Source: Deltaproteobacteria bacterium (GTDB lineage Bacteria; Myxococcota_A; Polyangia; JAAYKL01). From it: 64,000 nt of DNA. The first letter of the stretch is position 1, and each line of letters begins with the position of its first letter. Shown here piece after piece: positions 43,578-49,387 of this stretch. Location: the NCBI GenBank assembly GCA_016935665.1, contig JAFGQN010000244.1, positions 1 through 64,000 on the forward strand, written 5' to 3'. Both the position numbers and the translations under genes were made by a program. The notes beneath the pieces were generated by a model. The model had not been told where the DNA came from. It saw only the letters and a list, made by a program, of their open reading frames with translations, and did not search any database.

Positions 43578-44051
43578 AATGTGTCCTCCGTTGCCAAAAA
43601 GCTAAGGGAACATACGGCAAAACGTTTTCAGATTCAAGAAAAGGATGGAAAATGACATAAGAAAATCCAGAAACACTGAACATTTGCATGAAAAAAGCGA
43701 GGGAATGCAGATTGGTTCGGCTTGTGTTATTACTGTAAGTATTCGATTTTATGCAATAAAATAACACGAAGATGTGGAATGGCACTAATGTTACCGTGAA
43801 CGATTTTTTTAAGGTTTCCGATATCTTCACAGAGGGGTAACGGAAAAAAAATCCAGAGGAATTGGCCATTCCCGTAACATCCCGAAAACGTGTCGGTTGT
43901 GTATCGGTGGGGGTATTGCAAAAAGTGAATCTGTCACACTCTTTTCGTTGTTTTGGCACACATTCGTCACGAAATGCACCGAATATCTGGCGCCGTGAAA
44001 ACAATTCAAATGGATACTGCCCAAATAGGGTGAGCAGGAAAGGGGGAATCG
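43578..44051. other. Divergent intergenic region between rpoZ and the kinase gene
   Basis: 474 bases without a supported gene. Its right half carries an array of four 7+4-base units (43931-43970) upstream of the kinase. The kinase ribosome site is AGGAAAGGGGG just before 44052. Confidence 0.55.
43931..43970 (+). promoter_or_regulatory. Pho-box-like direct repeat array before the kinase gene
   Basis: Units spaced exactly 11 bases: CTGTCAC, TTTTCGT, TTGGCAC, TCGTCAC. Two fit the (C/T)TGTCA(C/T)-type half-site well or fairly and two poorly. It ends 81 bases before the start codon. It is the weakest of three similar arrays near here. Confidence 0.4.
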
Positions 44052-47033
44052 ATGAACTCCATCGATGAAAGGGTCACTGCCGCCACTCAGGATTTGATGA
44101 TACCAGCAACGGTATTGGAAACGTCTAAAGACACGGAACAGTTTTACCTGGGGAGTCGGTTGCAGACCCTCGGGGTTATCGGGAACGGGGGAATGGGTAC
44201 GGTGCTCAAAGTGTTTCACCGGGAACTCAAGGTGAACCGCGCCGTCAAGCTTATCGATGCGGAGGTGCTGCATCGGTCGCATCAGGTATTTGAGCGGTTC
44301 AGGCAGGAAGCCCTCATCGCCTCGGAGATTTCTCACCCGAATATAATAAAAGTGTATGATCTTGATAGAACGCCGGCCGGGTGTCCGTTTATGCTGATGG
44401 AGCTTTTGGAAGGGATGAATCTGGAATCGCTGATTTCGCAGAATGCGCCCCTTTCATTGTCGGCGGTAATTCGCCTGCTGGCAGGACCGGCGGATGCGCT
44501 GGATGCCGTTCATCGCAAAGGAGTGGTGCATCGGGATTTGAAACCGGCCAATCTGTTTTTGACCCACAGTGGCACAGTGAAGGTTCTTGATTTTGGCATA
44601 TCGGGCTTCATTTTCGGACCAAAGGATGCGCGCATTACCCGGGACGGAGAGGTGGTTGGTACGCCGCTCTATATGGCGCCGGAGCAGTTGACCGGCAATA
44701 GGCTGGATGGCCGGGCAGATGTTTACGCCCTGGGGGTGATTGCGTATGAGTTACTTACGGGAAAAACGATTTTTAAGTACAAAACGATACCCCAACTCAC
44801 CACGGCCATTATGAACGATACACCATTGGCGCCGTCCGTGTTGAATCGGACGCTGGCGGCGCACGTGGACGGCGTGATAGCCAGGGCGCTCGAAAAGGAA
44901 GCGGTCGGTCGATATGATACTGCACTGGATTTTGTTCGCGCGCTGGCGGGCCATGAATACACACATTTAATATCCAGCGTGATTCGTAAAGAGTTGTTGT
45001 GCGCCATTGACTCGTCTGAGTTTCACTGTCTGGAGTTGCAAAGCCATACAGTGAAATCAAGTAATGACACCTGCTTCTCGCAGAATGATGAACAACCAGT
45101 TGATGCACCTGATGCAAATACCGACGCAGAACAATTTGTGCCAAATGTGAGAAAAAAATCGAACTGTTCGAAGGCAAATTCAAAAAAGCGTAAATGGCGG
45201 TTTGTCGTCTGGTGGATTCTGTTGGGTGGACTGGCTGCCGTTCCTGGTATGCGGCTTCTTCTACCGACAACGGCATCCGCGCCTCACGTCACAATGACCA
45301 TCGATTCTGTGGAACTGGTTGGGATTAAAGACGATATGACATGGTGTACGCGAGCCATACGCCAGTTGCTGGGTGCGTATCTTTCACTGGATCCCAATAT
45401 TGAATTGATTGATCACAAAGGCGTCATCAGCAAACAACAGTCCGATGACTTGCATTTGCGTCTCACTGTGCATGCGACTTACGACACCCAATGGCGGTTT
45501 GCCATGAGTGTGCAAAATGACGCCAATGAGACGATTTTTTCCAAATTGGCCAATACTGCGGGGTTCGAAGATGCCATCGATGAACTCACGCTGGATTTAT
45601 ATCAGTTCGTGGGATTCGAGCTTATGGCGCCAGACTCGGAAGCAGGGGGAACGGACCAAAGCGCCTCCGCATCCATTGAAAAACGTCGGCAGAAGGAACT
45701 GACAACCATGGCACTGAAGGCGCTTATCTCGGAGGGATTGTTGCCGCGGGTTGGCAGTGTGACCGCTCTTATGCCGCCTTCTGCACAGCGGAGATTCTTT
45801 GATGCCTTCCATGCATATTTGCAATGCGTCATTGGTGAGTCGGCAAAAGAGTGTATGGAACAGCAACCGTTTCCACCGGTTGCTCATACAGGCAATGAAA
45901 CTGTTGATGCACTGTGGAAATTGTTTTCATCGGCAAACAAAACGACCACATGCGACGCAATTCGCCGGGGACCAGCAGGCGTTCGAGAACTGGCGCCGGT
46001 GTTGCCTGACTACTTTGCGTGCGAGACGTCCATGGACAAAATATGTGGCAATACAGATACGTTCTGGCGCAGATACGGATGTGCAATTGCTTCAGCAAAA
46101 GGGGACAGCGCCAGTACAGCGTTGAATTATATATATTCTGGGTTAAAGATGGATGCGGCCAACAAATTTTATGCGGGTATCGCCGTATTGCCGCAGACTG
46201 GACTGGCCAGTGAAAACGGAAACAGCTGGTTTCAGCGATTGGTCTGGCGAAATGGCGAAAACGAAAAATCGGTTGCCGCGTTGCATTTTTCAATGGAAAT
46301 GGCGAGACGACACGGTGAAATCGCGTTGATCTGGGCCAGACGGTCTTATGGGGCCGCATTGAAGACTGCGTTGGCGCTGGAAACGGCGGGCTGGTTGACT
46401 GAAGGAATGGTGCAGCATTTGCAGTTGTATTTGCAAATGTTATCCGACGGGAAGGGAACACCTGCGACACAACTTGAGCAGTTACGGCACTCGCTTTATC
46501 CAATCATATTATTCAAGGAAGAGTCGCTCGCGAATAAGTGGTTGAAAATCGTTGAGGAAAGTGAAAACGAAAACGAACAACTCACCGAAGCTTTAAGGTT
46601 GATCGCTTATGTTCTCGACAAAACCAGGGGAAGAACGTGTCGTCCATCCGCTTTTAAGACCTTTTCAAATGAAGCGGATTATCTTTGTGGGCGTCTGGAC
46701 CGCATCATTCGAAAATGTCCTGTCACAGTGGAAACGGCGCAGTCCAGCGCGTGGAACACATTTATAAGTGCAGATGCCAACCTTGAAAAAGGAAACGTAA
46801 ATGAAGCGAGAGCGCTTTTTAATAAACTTGAATCAGATGCGATTTTTCGAGTGAATTATCCGTTGATTTCAATTTCTGCATTAAAGCGTCTGGGAGATGT
46901 CGCTGTTGAAATGAAGCGCTTTGACGACGCTGCGACCTGGTATCGCCAGTATCTGTCCGTGTGGGGCGCTCTGGATTTACCCGTACGTGACTACATGGAG
47001 GCATCGCGTTATCTCAGCGGTCAACGAATGTGA
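44052..47033 (+). CDS. Membrane Ser/Thr protein kinase with a large Cys-containing C-terminal region
   Basis: A 993-residue protein. Residues about 35-300 are a Hanks-type kinase: Gly loop 'GNGGMGTVLKVF', Lys in 'RAVKLI', 'GVVHRDLKPANLFL', 'KVLDFGISG' and 'VGTPLYMAPEQ'. A membrane helix is at about 381-402 ('FVVWWILLGGLAAVPGMRLLL'). The remaining 590 residues, probably periplasmic, resemble no family I know. They contain helices and several Cys ('QCVIGESAKECME', 'CETSMDKICG') that may form disulfides. It could sense an envelope signal and phosphorylate cytoplasmic targets. The response regulator gene follows directly. Confidence 0.93.
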   Translation: MNSIDERVTAATQDLMIPATVLETSKDTEQFYLGSRLQTLGVIGNGGMGTVLKVFHRELKVNRAVKLIDAEVLHRSHQVFERFRQEALIASEISHPNIIKVYDLDRTPAGCPFMLMELLEGMNLESLISQNAPLSLSAVIRLLAGPADALDAVHRKGVVHRDLKPANLFLTHSGTVKVLDFGISGFIFGPKDARITRDGEVVGTPLYMAPEQLTGNRLDGRADVYALGVIAYELLTGKTIFKYKTIPQLTTAIMNDTPLAPSVLNRTLAAHVDGVIARALEKEAVGRYDTALDFVRALAGHEYTHLISSVIRKELLCAIDSSEFHCLELQSHTVKSSNDTCFSQNDEQPVDAPDANTDAEQFVPNVRKKSNCSKANSKKRKWRFVVWWILLGGLAAVPGMRLLLPTTASAPHVTMTIDSVELVGIKDDMTWCTRAIRQLLGAYLSLDPNIELIDHKGVISKQQSDDLHLRLTVHATYDTQWRFAMSVQNDANETIFSKLANTAGFEDAIDELTLDLYQFVGFELMAPDSEAGGTDQSASASIEKRRQKELTTMALKALISEGLLPRVGSVTALMPPSAQRRFFDAFHAYLQCVIGESAKECMEQQPFPPVAHTGNETVDALWKLFSSANKTTTCDAIRRGPAGVRELAPVLPDYFACETSMDKICGNTDTFWRRYGCAIASAKGDSASTALNYIYSGLKMDAANKFYAGIAVLPQTGLASENGNSWFQRLVWRNGENEKSVAALHFSMEMARRHGEIALIWARRSYGAALKTALALETAGWLTEGMVQHLQLYLQMLSDGKGTPATQLEQLRHSLYPIILFKEESLANKWLKIVEESENENEQLTEALRLIAYVLDKTRGRTCRPSAFKTFSNEADYLCGRLDRIIRKCPVTVETAQSSAWNTFISADANLEKGNVNEARALFNKLESDAIFRVNYPLISISALKRLGDVAVEMKRFDDAATWYRQYLSVWGALDLPVRDYMEASRYLSGQRM

Positions 47034-47039
47034 CAGAAT

Positions 47040-47072
47040 TGTTCACACGGTTCTCACACAGTTGTCACGCGG
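47040..47072 (+). promoter_or_regulatory. Pho-box-like direct repeats before the response regulator gene
   Basis: Three 7+4 units directly after the kinase stop: TGTTCAC-ACGG, TTCTCAC-ACAG, TTGTCAC-GCGG. The period is exactly 11 bases, as bound by PhoB/OmpR-type regulators. It ends 65 bases before the regulator start and suggests autoregulation. Confidence 0.6.
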
Positions 47073-47137
47073 TTGGTGCGAGACTGTCGTGTGAAGTTTA
47101 TAGAACTGTGGAACAATCATTTCCAGGGAGTGTGCAT

Positions 47138-47890
47138 ATGACAACTAAAATACTGGTTGTTGATTCGGATGAATCAATTGTGGACAAAATTTCGGCGTTG
47201 TTTAATGGCGCCGGCTATACGTGTACGGGTGCGCATTCAGGTGCTGAATGCGTACGGCGAATTCAGAATACGCGGTTTGATTTGATTATTATGGAGTTGG
47301 AGTTGCCGGACATGCCGGGAACGGAGTTATGCAGAACACTCAAATATAATGGCGCTACAGCCAGTACACCGTTGATGTTTTTATCCCGCATGGGTGCGGA
47401 AATGGATCGTGTTGTCGGACTCTCGTTGGGGGCCACGGATTACGTGGTCAAACCGTTTAGCAGCAGGGAATTGGTGTTGCGCGTGCGCGCTATTCTGCGA
47501 AGGACTGCCCAAAGAAAAACGCAGTCTGTTTTGACCAATGGCGTGATAACACTGGACCCCCGCAGCCACCAGGCCACTTTGGATTCGGAAACGCTGACGT
47601 TGACGCGAATTGAATTCAGATTGCTGGCGTCACTGGTGGGAGCGGGCGGACATGTGCTGAAACGGGAACAGATTATTGAACTGGTATGGGGAGAGAATGC
47701 CCATGTGCTGGATAGAACAGTGGATGCGCATATTCGAACGCTGCGCAAAAAGATGGGCGTTGCCAAAGATGAACTGGAAACGGTTCAGGGGGTTGGTTAT
47801 CGAATCCGTCAACATAGAGATGTCCATTGTGAAAACACCGCTTCGAAGAATTCAGATGTCGGTTACACAACTGTAAATGATATGTTCTGA
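47138..47890 (+). CDS. PhoB-like OmpR-family response regulator with Glu at the phospho-acceptor site
   Basis: A 250-residue DNA-binding protein. The receiver starts 'MTTKILVVDSDESI' and keeps the acidic pocket, a Ser at the switch position ('LMFLSRMG') and the Lys in 'YVVKPFSSREL', but residue 53, where PhoB has the phosphorylated Asp, is Glu ('DLIIMELELPDMPG'). The C-terminal winged helix, 'LTRIEFRLLASLVGAGGHVLKREQIIELVWG' and 'VLDRTVDAHIRTLRKKMG', is strongly PhoB-like. The ATG at 47138 follows AGGGAG. There is no histidine kinase gene beside it. Glu may mimic phosphorylation, giving a constitutively active or level-controlled regulator. Its likely targets are its own repeats and those at 47893. 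Confidence 0.92.
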   Translation: MTTKILVVDSDESIVDKISALFNGAGYTCTGAHSGAECVRRIQNTRFDLIIMELELPDMPGTELCRTLKYNGATASTPLMFLSRMGAEMDRVVGLSLGATDYVVKPFSSRELVLRVRAILRRTAQRKTQSVLTNGVITLDPRSHQATLDSETLTLTRIEFRLLASLVGAGGHVLKREQIIELVWGENAHVLDRTVDAHIRTLRKKMGVAKDELETVQGVGYRIRQHRDVHCENTASKNSDVGYTTVNDMF

Positions 47891-47892
47891 AG

Positions 47893-47925
47893 TTGTCATA
47901 CAAGCTTCATTCAACTGTCAAAGAA
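47893..47925 (+). promoter_or_regulatory. Pho box upstream of the lipoprotein-TonB operon
   Basis: TTGTCAT-ACAA-GCTTCAT-TCAA-CTGTCAA-AGAA: three 7+4 units with AT-rich spacers, close to the E. coli Pho box (CTGTCAT plus four A/T). It starts three bases after the regulator stop. TACCTT at 47932-47937 begins ten bases after the third half-site, the right place for a -10 of a PhoB-activated promoter. Confidence 0.7.
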
Positions 47926-48001
47926 CTCGCCTACCTTCCTCCCCATGACAGTTGAACAACAACCTTGCCTATTAAGGTTTTATCCAGGGAGGATACTGAA
48001 G

Positions 48002-49387
48002 ATGTCAAAATTTACATGGAAATTAGTGGTGCTCTTTTGTCTGATGCTGATGGTCGTTTTGCTGGTTGGCGGATGCGAAGAAGACGACGATAAACCAGGT
48101 GAAAACAGGAAAACAGACAGTGACAAAATTACAGCAACAGACAGTGACACCATAGACACTGCCAGCGATACCGCAACAACAACGCCTATGGCGGAATGTC
48201 ACGGGGAGATGAACACCGCCAAAACAATGTGCATTGTCAGTGGTGTTCTTACCGGTGCAACGCACCATTGGACGAAGGCCTACACGTATGTGTTGCGCGG
48301 CGGCGTTTTTGTGGGTGATGATGTGAATGAGACTGTGTTGACAATTGATCCGGGTGTGACTGTTTTGGGAGAAGTATCCACCAAGGGTATGCTTGTTGTG
48401 ACAAGGGGGTCCAAAATTATGGCCGCCGGAACGGTAACCGAGCCAATTGTATTTACGTCCTCGAATCCTGTTGGTTCGAGAGCCCGTGGCGACTGGGGAG
48501 GCTTAATTATAAATGGACGCGCTACCATTAATGGTTGTGACACGCCTCCTTGTGAAGCCAGTGGCGAAGGGGGAACAGGTTGGTATGGTGGAACCAATGA
48601 TGACGACAACAGTGGTATACTGCAGTATGTACGCGTTGAGTTTGCTGGTCGTCTCATTAGTGAAGACAATGAACTCAATGGCATCGCTTTTCAGGGCGTT
48701 GGCCGTGGTACAGTTGTTGACAATGTGCAGGTACACATGAATGCAGACGATGGAGTTGAATTTTTTGGCGGCACAGTTAGTGTAAAACATGTTTACCTGA
48801 CCGGCATTGGTGATGATTGTCTGGACTGGACCGATGGCTGGAGAGGATACGCACAATACATTCTGGCAGTACAGTCGCCGGATGCGGGCGACCAGGGCAT
48901 TGAAGCGGACAACAACGCTGAAAATAACGCACTTACACCAATTGCAAATCCAATCCTTTCCAATGTGACTCTGTTGGGTTCCGGTGGTGAAAACTCTGAT
49001 ATTGGCATGCTTCTGCGAGAGGGCACCAAAGCGACTATTCACAACACAATCGTAGCCAATTTTGCCGATGGTTGCATCGACATGGACGGTGATACGATTA
49101 CACATGCCGCTAACGGTGAAGTGATAATCAATAACTCCATTGTAAATTGTACGGTGAATTTTATGGAGGGTGGGGATGAAGTTCCTGCCACAGTGGTGTC
49201 AGACACGTGGAATGCAGGCACAGGCAATCAAATTGGAAACGCGCTTGCGGGTATCTATTCGACAGGCATTGCCATCGGTACGGGTGCAGCACCCGCCAAT
49301 GCATTTTTTGACCAGGTGAATTACGTGGGGGCCGTCACGCAGGAGGCGGACTGGACCGCTGGCTGGACCACCACCGCACCAAATTGA
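48002..49387 (+). CDS. Beta-helix-type surface lipoprotein
   Basis: A 461-residue protein. The signal peptide ends 'VLLVGGCEEDDDK' (lipobox), followed by an acidic Thr/Ser/Asp linker. The body has turns typical of a right-handed parallel beta-helix, for example 'VTRGSKIMAAGTVTEPIVFTSS', 'RGDWGGLIINGRATI', 'LQYVRVEFAG', 'LNGIAFQGVGRGTVVDNVQVH' and 'DDGVEFFGGTVSVKHVYLTG'. I recall this widespread family, of unknown activity, near TonB receptor genes. It lacks a recognisable lyase site. The ATG at 48002 follows AGGGAGG; the track adds 19 codons. It is the first gene after the Pho box and its transcript meets a hairpin at 49410. Confidence 0.82.
   Translation: MSKFTWKLVVLFCLMLMVVLLVGGCEEDDDKPGENRKTDSDKITATDSDTIDTASDTATTTPMAECHGEMNTAKTMCIVSGVLTGATHHWTKAYTYVLRGGVFVGDDVNETVLTIDPGVTVLGEVSTKGMLVVTRGSKIMAAGTVTEPIVFTSSNPVGSRARGDWGGLIINGRATINGCDTPPCEASGEGGTGWYGGTNDDDNSGILQYVRVEFAGRLISEDNELNGIAFQGVGRGTVVDNVQVHMNADDGVEFFGGTVSVKHVYLTGIGDDCLDWTDGWRGYAQYILAVQSPDAGDQGIEADNNAENNALTPIANPILSNVTLLGSGGENSDIGMLLREGTKATIHNTIVANFADGCIDMDGDTITHAANGEVIINNSIVNCTVNFMEGGDEVPATVVSDTWNAGTGNQIGNALAGIYSTGIAIGTGAAPANAFFDQVNYVGAVTQEADWTAGWTTTAPN

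Follow-up and report, generated by a model that had tools for sequence, protein, structure and literature searches.

Positions 47893-47925 very probably form a genuine promoter element of the phosphate-starvation response, and the operon that follows it is probably a phosphorus-uptake module; both judgements rest on sequence comparison within the window, that is, the whole stretch of 64,000 nucleotides that was analysed, and with related genomes. We consider it likely that the promoter spanning 47860-47937 would be turned on by PhoB, that it would drive a TonB operon for phosphorus uptake, and that a PhoB paralogue encoded beside it would reinforce this expression. The coordinates of the features are given in Table 1.

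Table 1. Features of the gene cluster around the Pho box, with the basis of each assignment (positions are those of the window).
Feature	Start	End	Strand	Basis and remarks
Third Pho-type array, before the Ser/Thr kinase gene	43932	43986	+	TGTCAC, TTTCGT, TGGCAC, CGTCAC; GAATAT at the -10 place
Hanks-type Ser/Thr kinase, C-terminal TPR-like region	44052	47033	+	PF00069, E=4.7e-45
Second Pho-type array, upstream of the regulator gene	47041	47068	+	GTTCAC, TCTCAC, TGTCAC at 11-bp steps
OmpR/PhoB-family regulator with pseudo-receiver (D10 to S, D53 to E)	47138	47890	+	PF00072, PF00486; alignment with PhoB
Three weaker in-register 11-bp units	47860	47892	+	CGGTTACACAA CTGTAAATGAT ATGTTCTGAAG; overlap the last codons of the regulator; matrix, array scan, synonymous conservation
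Pho box of the lipoprotein-TonB operon	47893	47925	+	Three 11-bp units TTGTCATACAA GCTTCATTCAA CTGTCAAAGAA; sequence and conservation in two congeners
Probable -10 element TACCTT	47932	47937	+	Ten-base gap as in E. coli phoA and family pstS; CTA--TT columns kept in congeners
Predicted lipoprotein, first gene of the operon	48002	49387	+	Lipobox-like N-terminus; accompanies the TonB cassette across the class
TtpB-like protein (DUF3450)	49481	50287	+	PF11932, E=4.5e-27
TtpC-like MotA/TolQ/ExbB protein, extended N-terminal region	50287	51750	+	PF01618
ExbB-like	51747	52382	+	PF01618
ExbD-like	52379	52783	+	PF02472
TonB	52815	53471	+	PF03544; start set at an internal ATG (putative)
TtpD-like TPR protein	53475	54653	+	TPR families
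TonB-dependent receptor with CarboxypepD_reg domain	54665	57826	+	PF00593, PF07715, PF13620; TIGR01782 below cut-off

Pho boxes are built of 11-bp direct repeats of a CTGTCAT-like heptamer. Direct reading of the sequence gives TTGTCAT (47893-47899) followed by ACAA, GCTTCAT (47904-47910) followed by TCAA, and CTGTCAA (47915-47921) followed by AGAA up to 47925. The three 7+4 repeats of the original prediction are thus present exactly as described, in register, with two heptamers matching the consensus at 6/7 positions and one at 4/7. TACCTT begins after a gap of ten bases from the last heptamer (six bases past 47925), and the sequence of E. coli phoA (NC_000913), which reads TTGTCAC-GGCCGAGACT-TATAGT, has the same ten-base gap, as had been predicted. 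A generic sigma-70 scan detected no promoter at 47893-47937, as is expected if the Pho box replaces the -35 element, and an Rfam search of 46900-48400 returned no match. The site therefore resembles the E. coli Pho box promoters (phoA, pstS) in its 11-bp heptamer repeats and in the -10 placed ten bases after the last heptamer. It differs from them in its middle unit, CTTCAT, which is off consensus yet invariant in three congeners, in the three weak units by which the array extends upstream into the final codons of the regulator gene, and in its predicted target, a TonB energiser.

The strongest evidence for the element, as judged from aligned sequences, is the conservation of its footprint. 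Two genomes of the same genus (G001 and G002), whose regulators are 64-67% identical to that of the window, retain TTGTCA-N5-CTTCATT-N4-TGTCA together with the CTA--TT of the -10. Across the three species, 16/18 columns are invariant in the unit cores versus 2/15 in the linkers (Fisher p=1.6e-5). In the last codons of the regulator, where the weak upstream units lie, synonymous conservation is also raised (4/6 versus 23/128, p=0.015, from a small sample).

Scores of the site taken by themselves are less telling. With a 33-base matrix trained only on the pstS promoters of eight relatives, 47905-47937 ranked second of the 127,936 window positions scored (13.6 bits), and first came 47861-47893, which lies directly upstream of the Pho box and shares its 11-bp register. 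Scores as good as that of 47905-47937 are expected 0.42 times per shuffled 64-kb window, so that this match alone is not significant, even though the likeness to the pst promoters of the same genome and its relatives is evident. We also scanned for arrays of 11-bp units, trying two to six units; each expectation given here applies to one unit number and carries no correction for this choice. Six in-register units, as at 47860-47925, are expected 0.07 times per shuffled window; three other, overlapping six-unit frames near 43910-43932, in the array before the kinase gene, tie with them in score. The array at 47041 is the best three-unit array of the window (0.14 expected per shuffled window) and is partly conserved in the congeners; no recognisable -10 was found at the standard place after it. 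The array at 43932 is the best four-unit array, and none as good arose in 200 shuffles. All three arrays, before the kinase gene, the regulator gene and the lipoprotein operon, lie in one gene cluster.

The comparison with known phosphate genes, in this genome and in relatives that include metagenome assemblies, favours the Pho box reading. The pstS promoters of the same genome and of eight relatives (G001-G003, G005, G006, G009, G010 and G012) carry two or more units and a -10 at equal spacing, with variant units in some of them (CGTAAC in G003 and G012; TGTTTC as the first of two in G010), and Pho-type sites of such a layout also precede phoB in this genome and in G012, as well as the porin gene of G012. 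Under a pstS matrix trained on neither, the pstS site of the same genome scored 24.4 bits and the phoB site of G012 19.0 bits; the sites before the lipoprotein gene score weakly under the pstS matrix, with 8.3 bits in G009 and 4.3 bits in G012. With this layout and spacing shared, and with Pho-type sites near two Na/Pi cotransporter genes, there is good support for reading the site as a Pho box whose -10 is correctly placed.

The genome scan for matches before pst-like genes, which had been proposed as a check, was borne out for the best-ranked matches and failed for the weak ones. Of the matches to a pstS-derived pattern, the best are pstS itself, with 0 mismatches, and one next to a Na/Pi cotransporter gene, with 2; those with three mismatches include the 47893 site and one that precedes a second Na/Pi cotransporter-like gene by ~50 bp. 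However, at up to three mismatches the genome holds 14 matches versus 26 for a reversed-pattern control, and since the weak matches are not in excess, the matrix alone could not decide the identity of the Pho box. Another pattern had zero mismatches only at the 47893 site and at pstS, but it was designed after both sites had been viewed and is not counted as independent evidence. No Pho-type arrays were found at the two paralogous TtpB-TtpC-ExbB-ExbD-TonB-TtpD operons of this genome (C158:36293 and C2:4346). A chance arrangement of TGTCA-like words would fit both these genome-wide counts and the site score alone; it is nevertheless hardly credible beside a conservation confined to the unit cores, two further arrays and the linkage to pst described below. 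One good Pho-box match (C21:27508-27540, L185) lies 34 bp from a Na/Pi cotransporter gene; it is oriented away from this gene and thus was not counted as a clear promoter.

By its predicted products, the operon downstream of the site is neither a pst nor a phoA operon of the classical kind; it is a TonB2-type energised uptake operon, which relatives carry in linkage with pst. The Pfam domains follow one another as DUF3450, MotA/ExbB, MotA/ExbB, ExbD, TonB_C, TPR and receptor, which is the TonB2-type six-component order, and the six components would energise the TonB-dependent receptor encoded downstream. Orthologues of the TtpC-like protein occur in 8/14 genomes of the family. No Pfam family was assigned to the leading lipoprotein, and its AlphaFold model, mostly beta, is of low confidence (mean pLDDT 46) and hence too poor to use.

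The identical order of six components, ttpB-ttpC-exbB-exbD-tonB-ttpD, is found in the Vibrio TonB2/TonB3 systems, and the TonB2 operon of V. vulnificus is induced by iron limitation and has a putative Fur site (PMC6957404). An iron-regulated system of the Vibrio kind, next to which the repeats would be incidental, could account for the gene set and its order. We regard it as very unlikely, given that the Pho-type footprint is conserved and that relatives have the cassette linked to pst, phoBR and a Porin_O_P porin. Unlike Vibrio TonB2, the operon of the window stands behind a Pho box, begins with a lipoprotein gene and also contains a receptor gene.

The linkage is most complete in G012, where a single 98.5-kb contig carries phoB-phoR-paralogue-kinase-lipoprotein-TtpB-TtpC-ExbB-ExbD-TonB-TtpD-receptor-porin and, after ~5 kb, pstSCAB-phoU; the porin, upstream of pst, is a Porin_O_P phosphate porin. 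G003, a congener of G012, lacks the cassette and has phoB-phoR-porin-pst. In G004 the lipoprotein-to-receptor cassette has pstS after it at a distance of at most ~120 bp, and no Pho box was seen in the gap between receptor and pstS. Outside the family, the TtpB-to-TtpD set was found in nine loci of the class (one broken by a contig end), mostly with the lipoprotein and the receptor, and a PhoB-family regulator adjoins the cassette in four of the nine (G229, G180, G053 and G273). This regulator is often degenerate, and is canonical in G180. In G053, the TonB cassette adjoins a pair of neighbouring degenerate PhoB-like regulators (L246, 9274-9906 and 10247-10777), and the sequence upstream of the first, TGTTCACTCTACTGTCACAGAAGCACTCTAAG, is Pho-box-like with the standard -10 spacing.

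The location of the site between a regulator and the operon that it would control had been put forward together with the Pho box itself. The site does lie there, but the role implied for the regulator has to be revised: judging from its alignment, the adjoining gene product is not a canonical PhoB but a paralogue with a degenerate receiver (D53E, D10S). No histidine kinase gene lies beside it, and the canonical PhoB-PhoR pair is encoded on another contig (C12). The regulator scored 191.7 bits against the NCBIfam PhoB model, under the cut-off of 296.2. Its alignment with E. coli PhoB, whose reference sequence was checked against PDB entries, is gapless over the active site and shows D9, S10, E53, S83 and K105; both the phospho-acceptor aspartate at position 53 and the second residue of the acidic pair 9-10 are thus replaced. 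Among the six family paralogues aligned (window, G001, G002, G010, G012 and G009), D10 and D53 are lost in each, with position 53 being Glu in five and Gly in one; they cluster together with modest support (82/70) on long branches. The recognition helix, in contrast, remains PhoB-like (DRTVDAHIRTLRK versus DRTVDVHIRRLRK), with residues equivalent to R193, T194 and H198 retained and R201 replaced by T.

The PhoB receiver in PDB entry 2jb9 carries D10A and D53E according to our alignment, and we take this double mutant to be constitutively active. The same two positions are changed in the paralogues (D10 to S or P; D53 to E in 5/6), with the difference that 2jb9 is a laboratory mutant, whereas the changes here are natural and conserved. 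In aspartate-less receivers, Glu is the commonest residue at the phospho-acceptor position; phosphomimicry remains a hypothesis for them and failed in some tested cases (PMC12632262). The regulator of the window shares with these pseudo-receiver regulators the Glu and the missing partner histidine kinase gene, and differs from them in its setting: its gene neighbours a Ser/Thr kinase gene within a phosphate-linked cluster that bears a Pho box. A relative of this kinase also adjoins the regulator in G002 and G012. The regulator has a cysteine, C29, ~19 residues past the acidic-pair position, which is kept in the three congeners and absent in G010; for some pseudo-receivers, a Cys in this position is described as a point of redox control (PMC12632262).

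Which protein acts on the box can be argued in three ways. In the first, canonical PhoB alone would control the operon as a plain member of the Pho regulon, the paralogue being in decay or unrelated. The pstS-like layout of the site, the long branches of the paralogues and their eroded receiver agree with this, and we hold it to be possible though doubtful, because the congeners retain a regulator of 64-67% identity whose DNA-binding domain is intact, the array in its own promoter is conserved in part, and PhoB-like regulators with a pseudo-receiver are found repeatedly next to the cassette within the class. In the second, the repeats would be a private operator of the adjoining regulator, answering to a signal other than phosphate, such as phosphorylation by the Ser/Thr kinase, and their likeness to a Pho box would reflect the shared ancestry of the DNA-binding domains. 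In its favour are the adjacency of regulator, kinase and operon, the arrays before all three transcription units, the retained counterparts of PhoB R193, T194 and H198, and the PhoB-family regulators, often degenerate, that accompany the cassette in other families of the class. We nevertheless think it improbable, since the site has its unit sequence, -10 and spacing in common with pstS of this genome, G012 and G004 show linkage of the cassette to pst or phoBR, and the regulator adjoining the cassette in G180 is canonical.

We favour the third, in which both PhoB and the paralogue would act on the box, over either alone. Upon phosphate starvation, canonical PhoB (with PhoR, from contig C12) would bind the promoter at 47860-47937, with its three good and three weaker 11-bp units and its -10 at the standard place, and would switch the operon on. 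The products, from lipoprotein through TtpB, TtpC, ExbB, ExbD, TonB and TtpD to the receptor, would form an energised outer-membrane route for a phosphorus compound and feed the Pst transporter; the ligand may be phosphate itself, one of its esters or some other compound of phosphorus. The paralogue lies behind a Pho-type array of its own, and PhoB would therefore induce it as well. With Glu in place of the phospho-acceptor Asp, it would be active whenever it is made, and once induced it would bind similar repeats and reinforce or prolong the expression of the operon. We further propose, tentatively, that a Pho-regulated operon of TonB energiser and receptor would be held on by this PhoB-induced, naturally constitutive paralogue (D10S/D53E), such that a brief phosphate shortage leads to sustained expression, with possible tuning of the paralogue by the Ser/Thr kinase.

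In the textbook view, phosphate enters through passive porins and the Pst transporter. A TonB energiser set placed behind a Pho box, and inside or beside pst in relatives, would mean that some bacteria spend energy on the uptake of phosphorus across the outer membrane. TonB-linked uptake under Pho control is in itself an idea already known: the PhoB regulon of Caulobacter crescentus contains TonB receptors, for which a part in the import of alternative phosphate donors is assumed (PMC11208175). Receptors alone are mentioned there, whereas the operon of the window holds a whole energiser set and adjoins a PhoB paralogue, and it is in the energiser set within the regulon and in the pseudo-receiver partner that the proposed system would differ. 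Our search for a published Pho-regulated TonB energiser, made mostly in literature outside subscription journals, found only PhoB-controlled receptors. Moreover, the paralogue is a protein that evolution has kept with changes at the same two positions as in a laboratory PhoB mutant, and with it the action of a pseudo-receiver becomes directly testable at a known DNA site.

Two small hairpins are possible in the leader of the lipoprotein gene (47962-47994). One of them, the second (TATCC-AGGGA-GGATA), includes the ribosome-binding site, and three species agree in all 15 of its bases.
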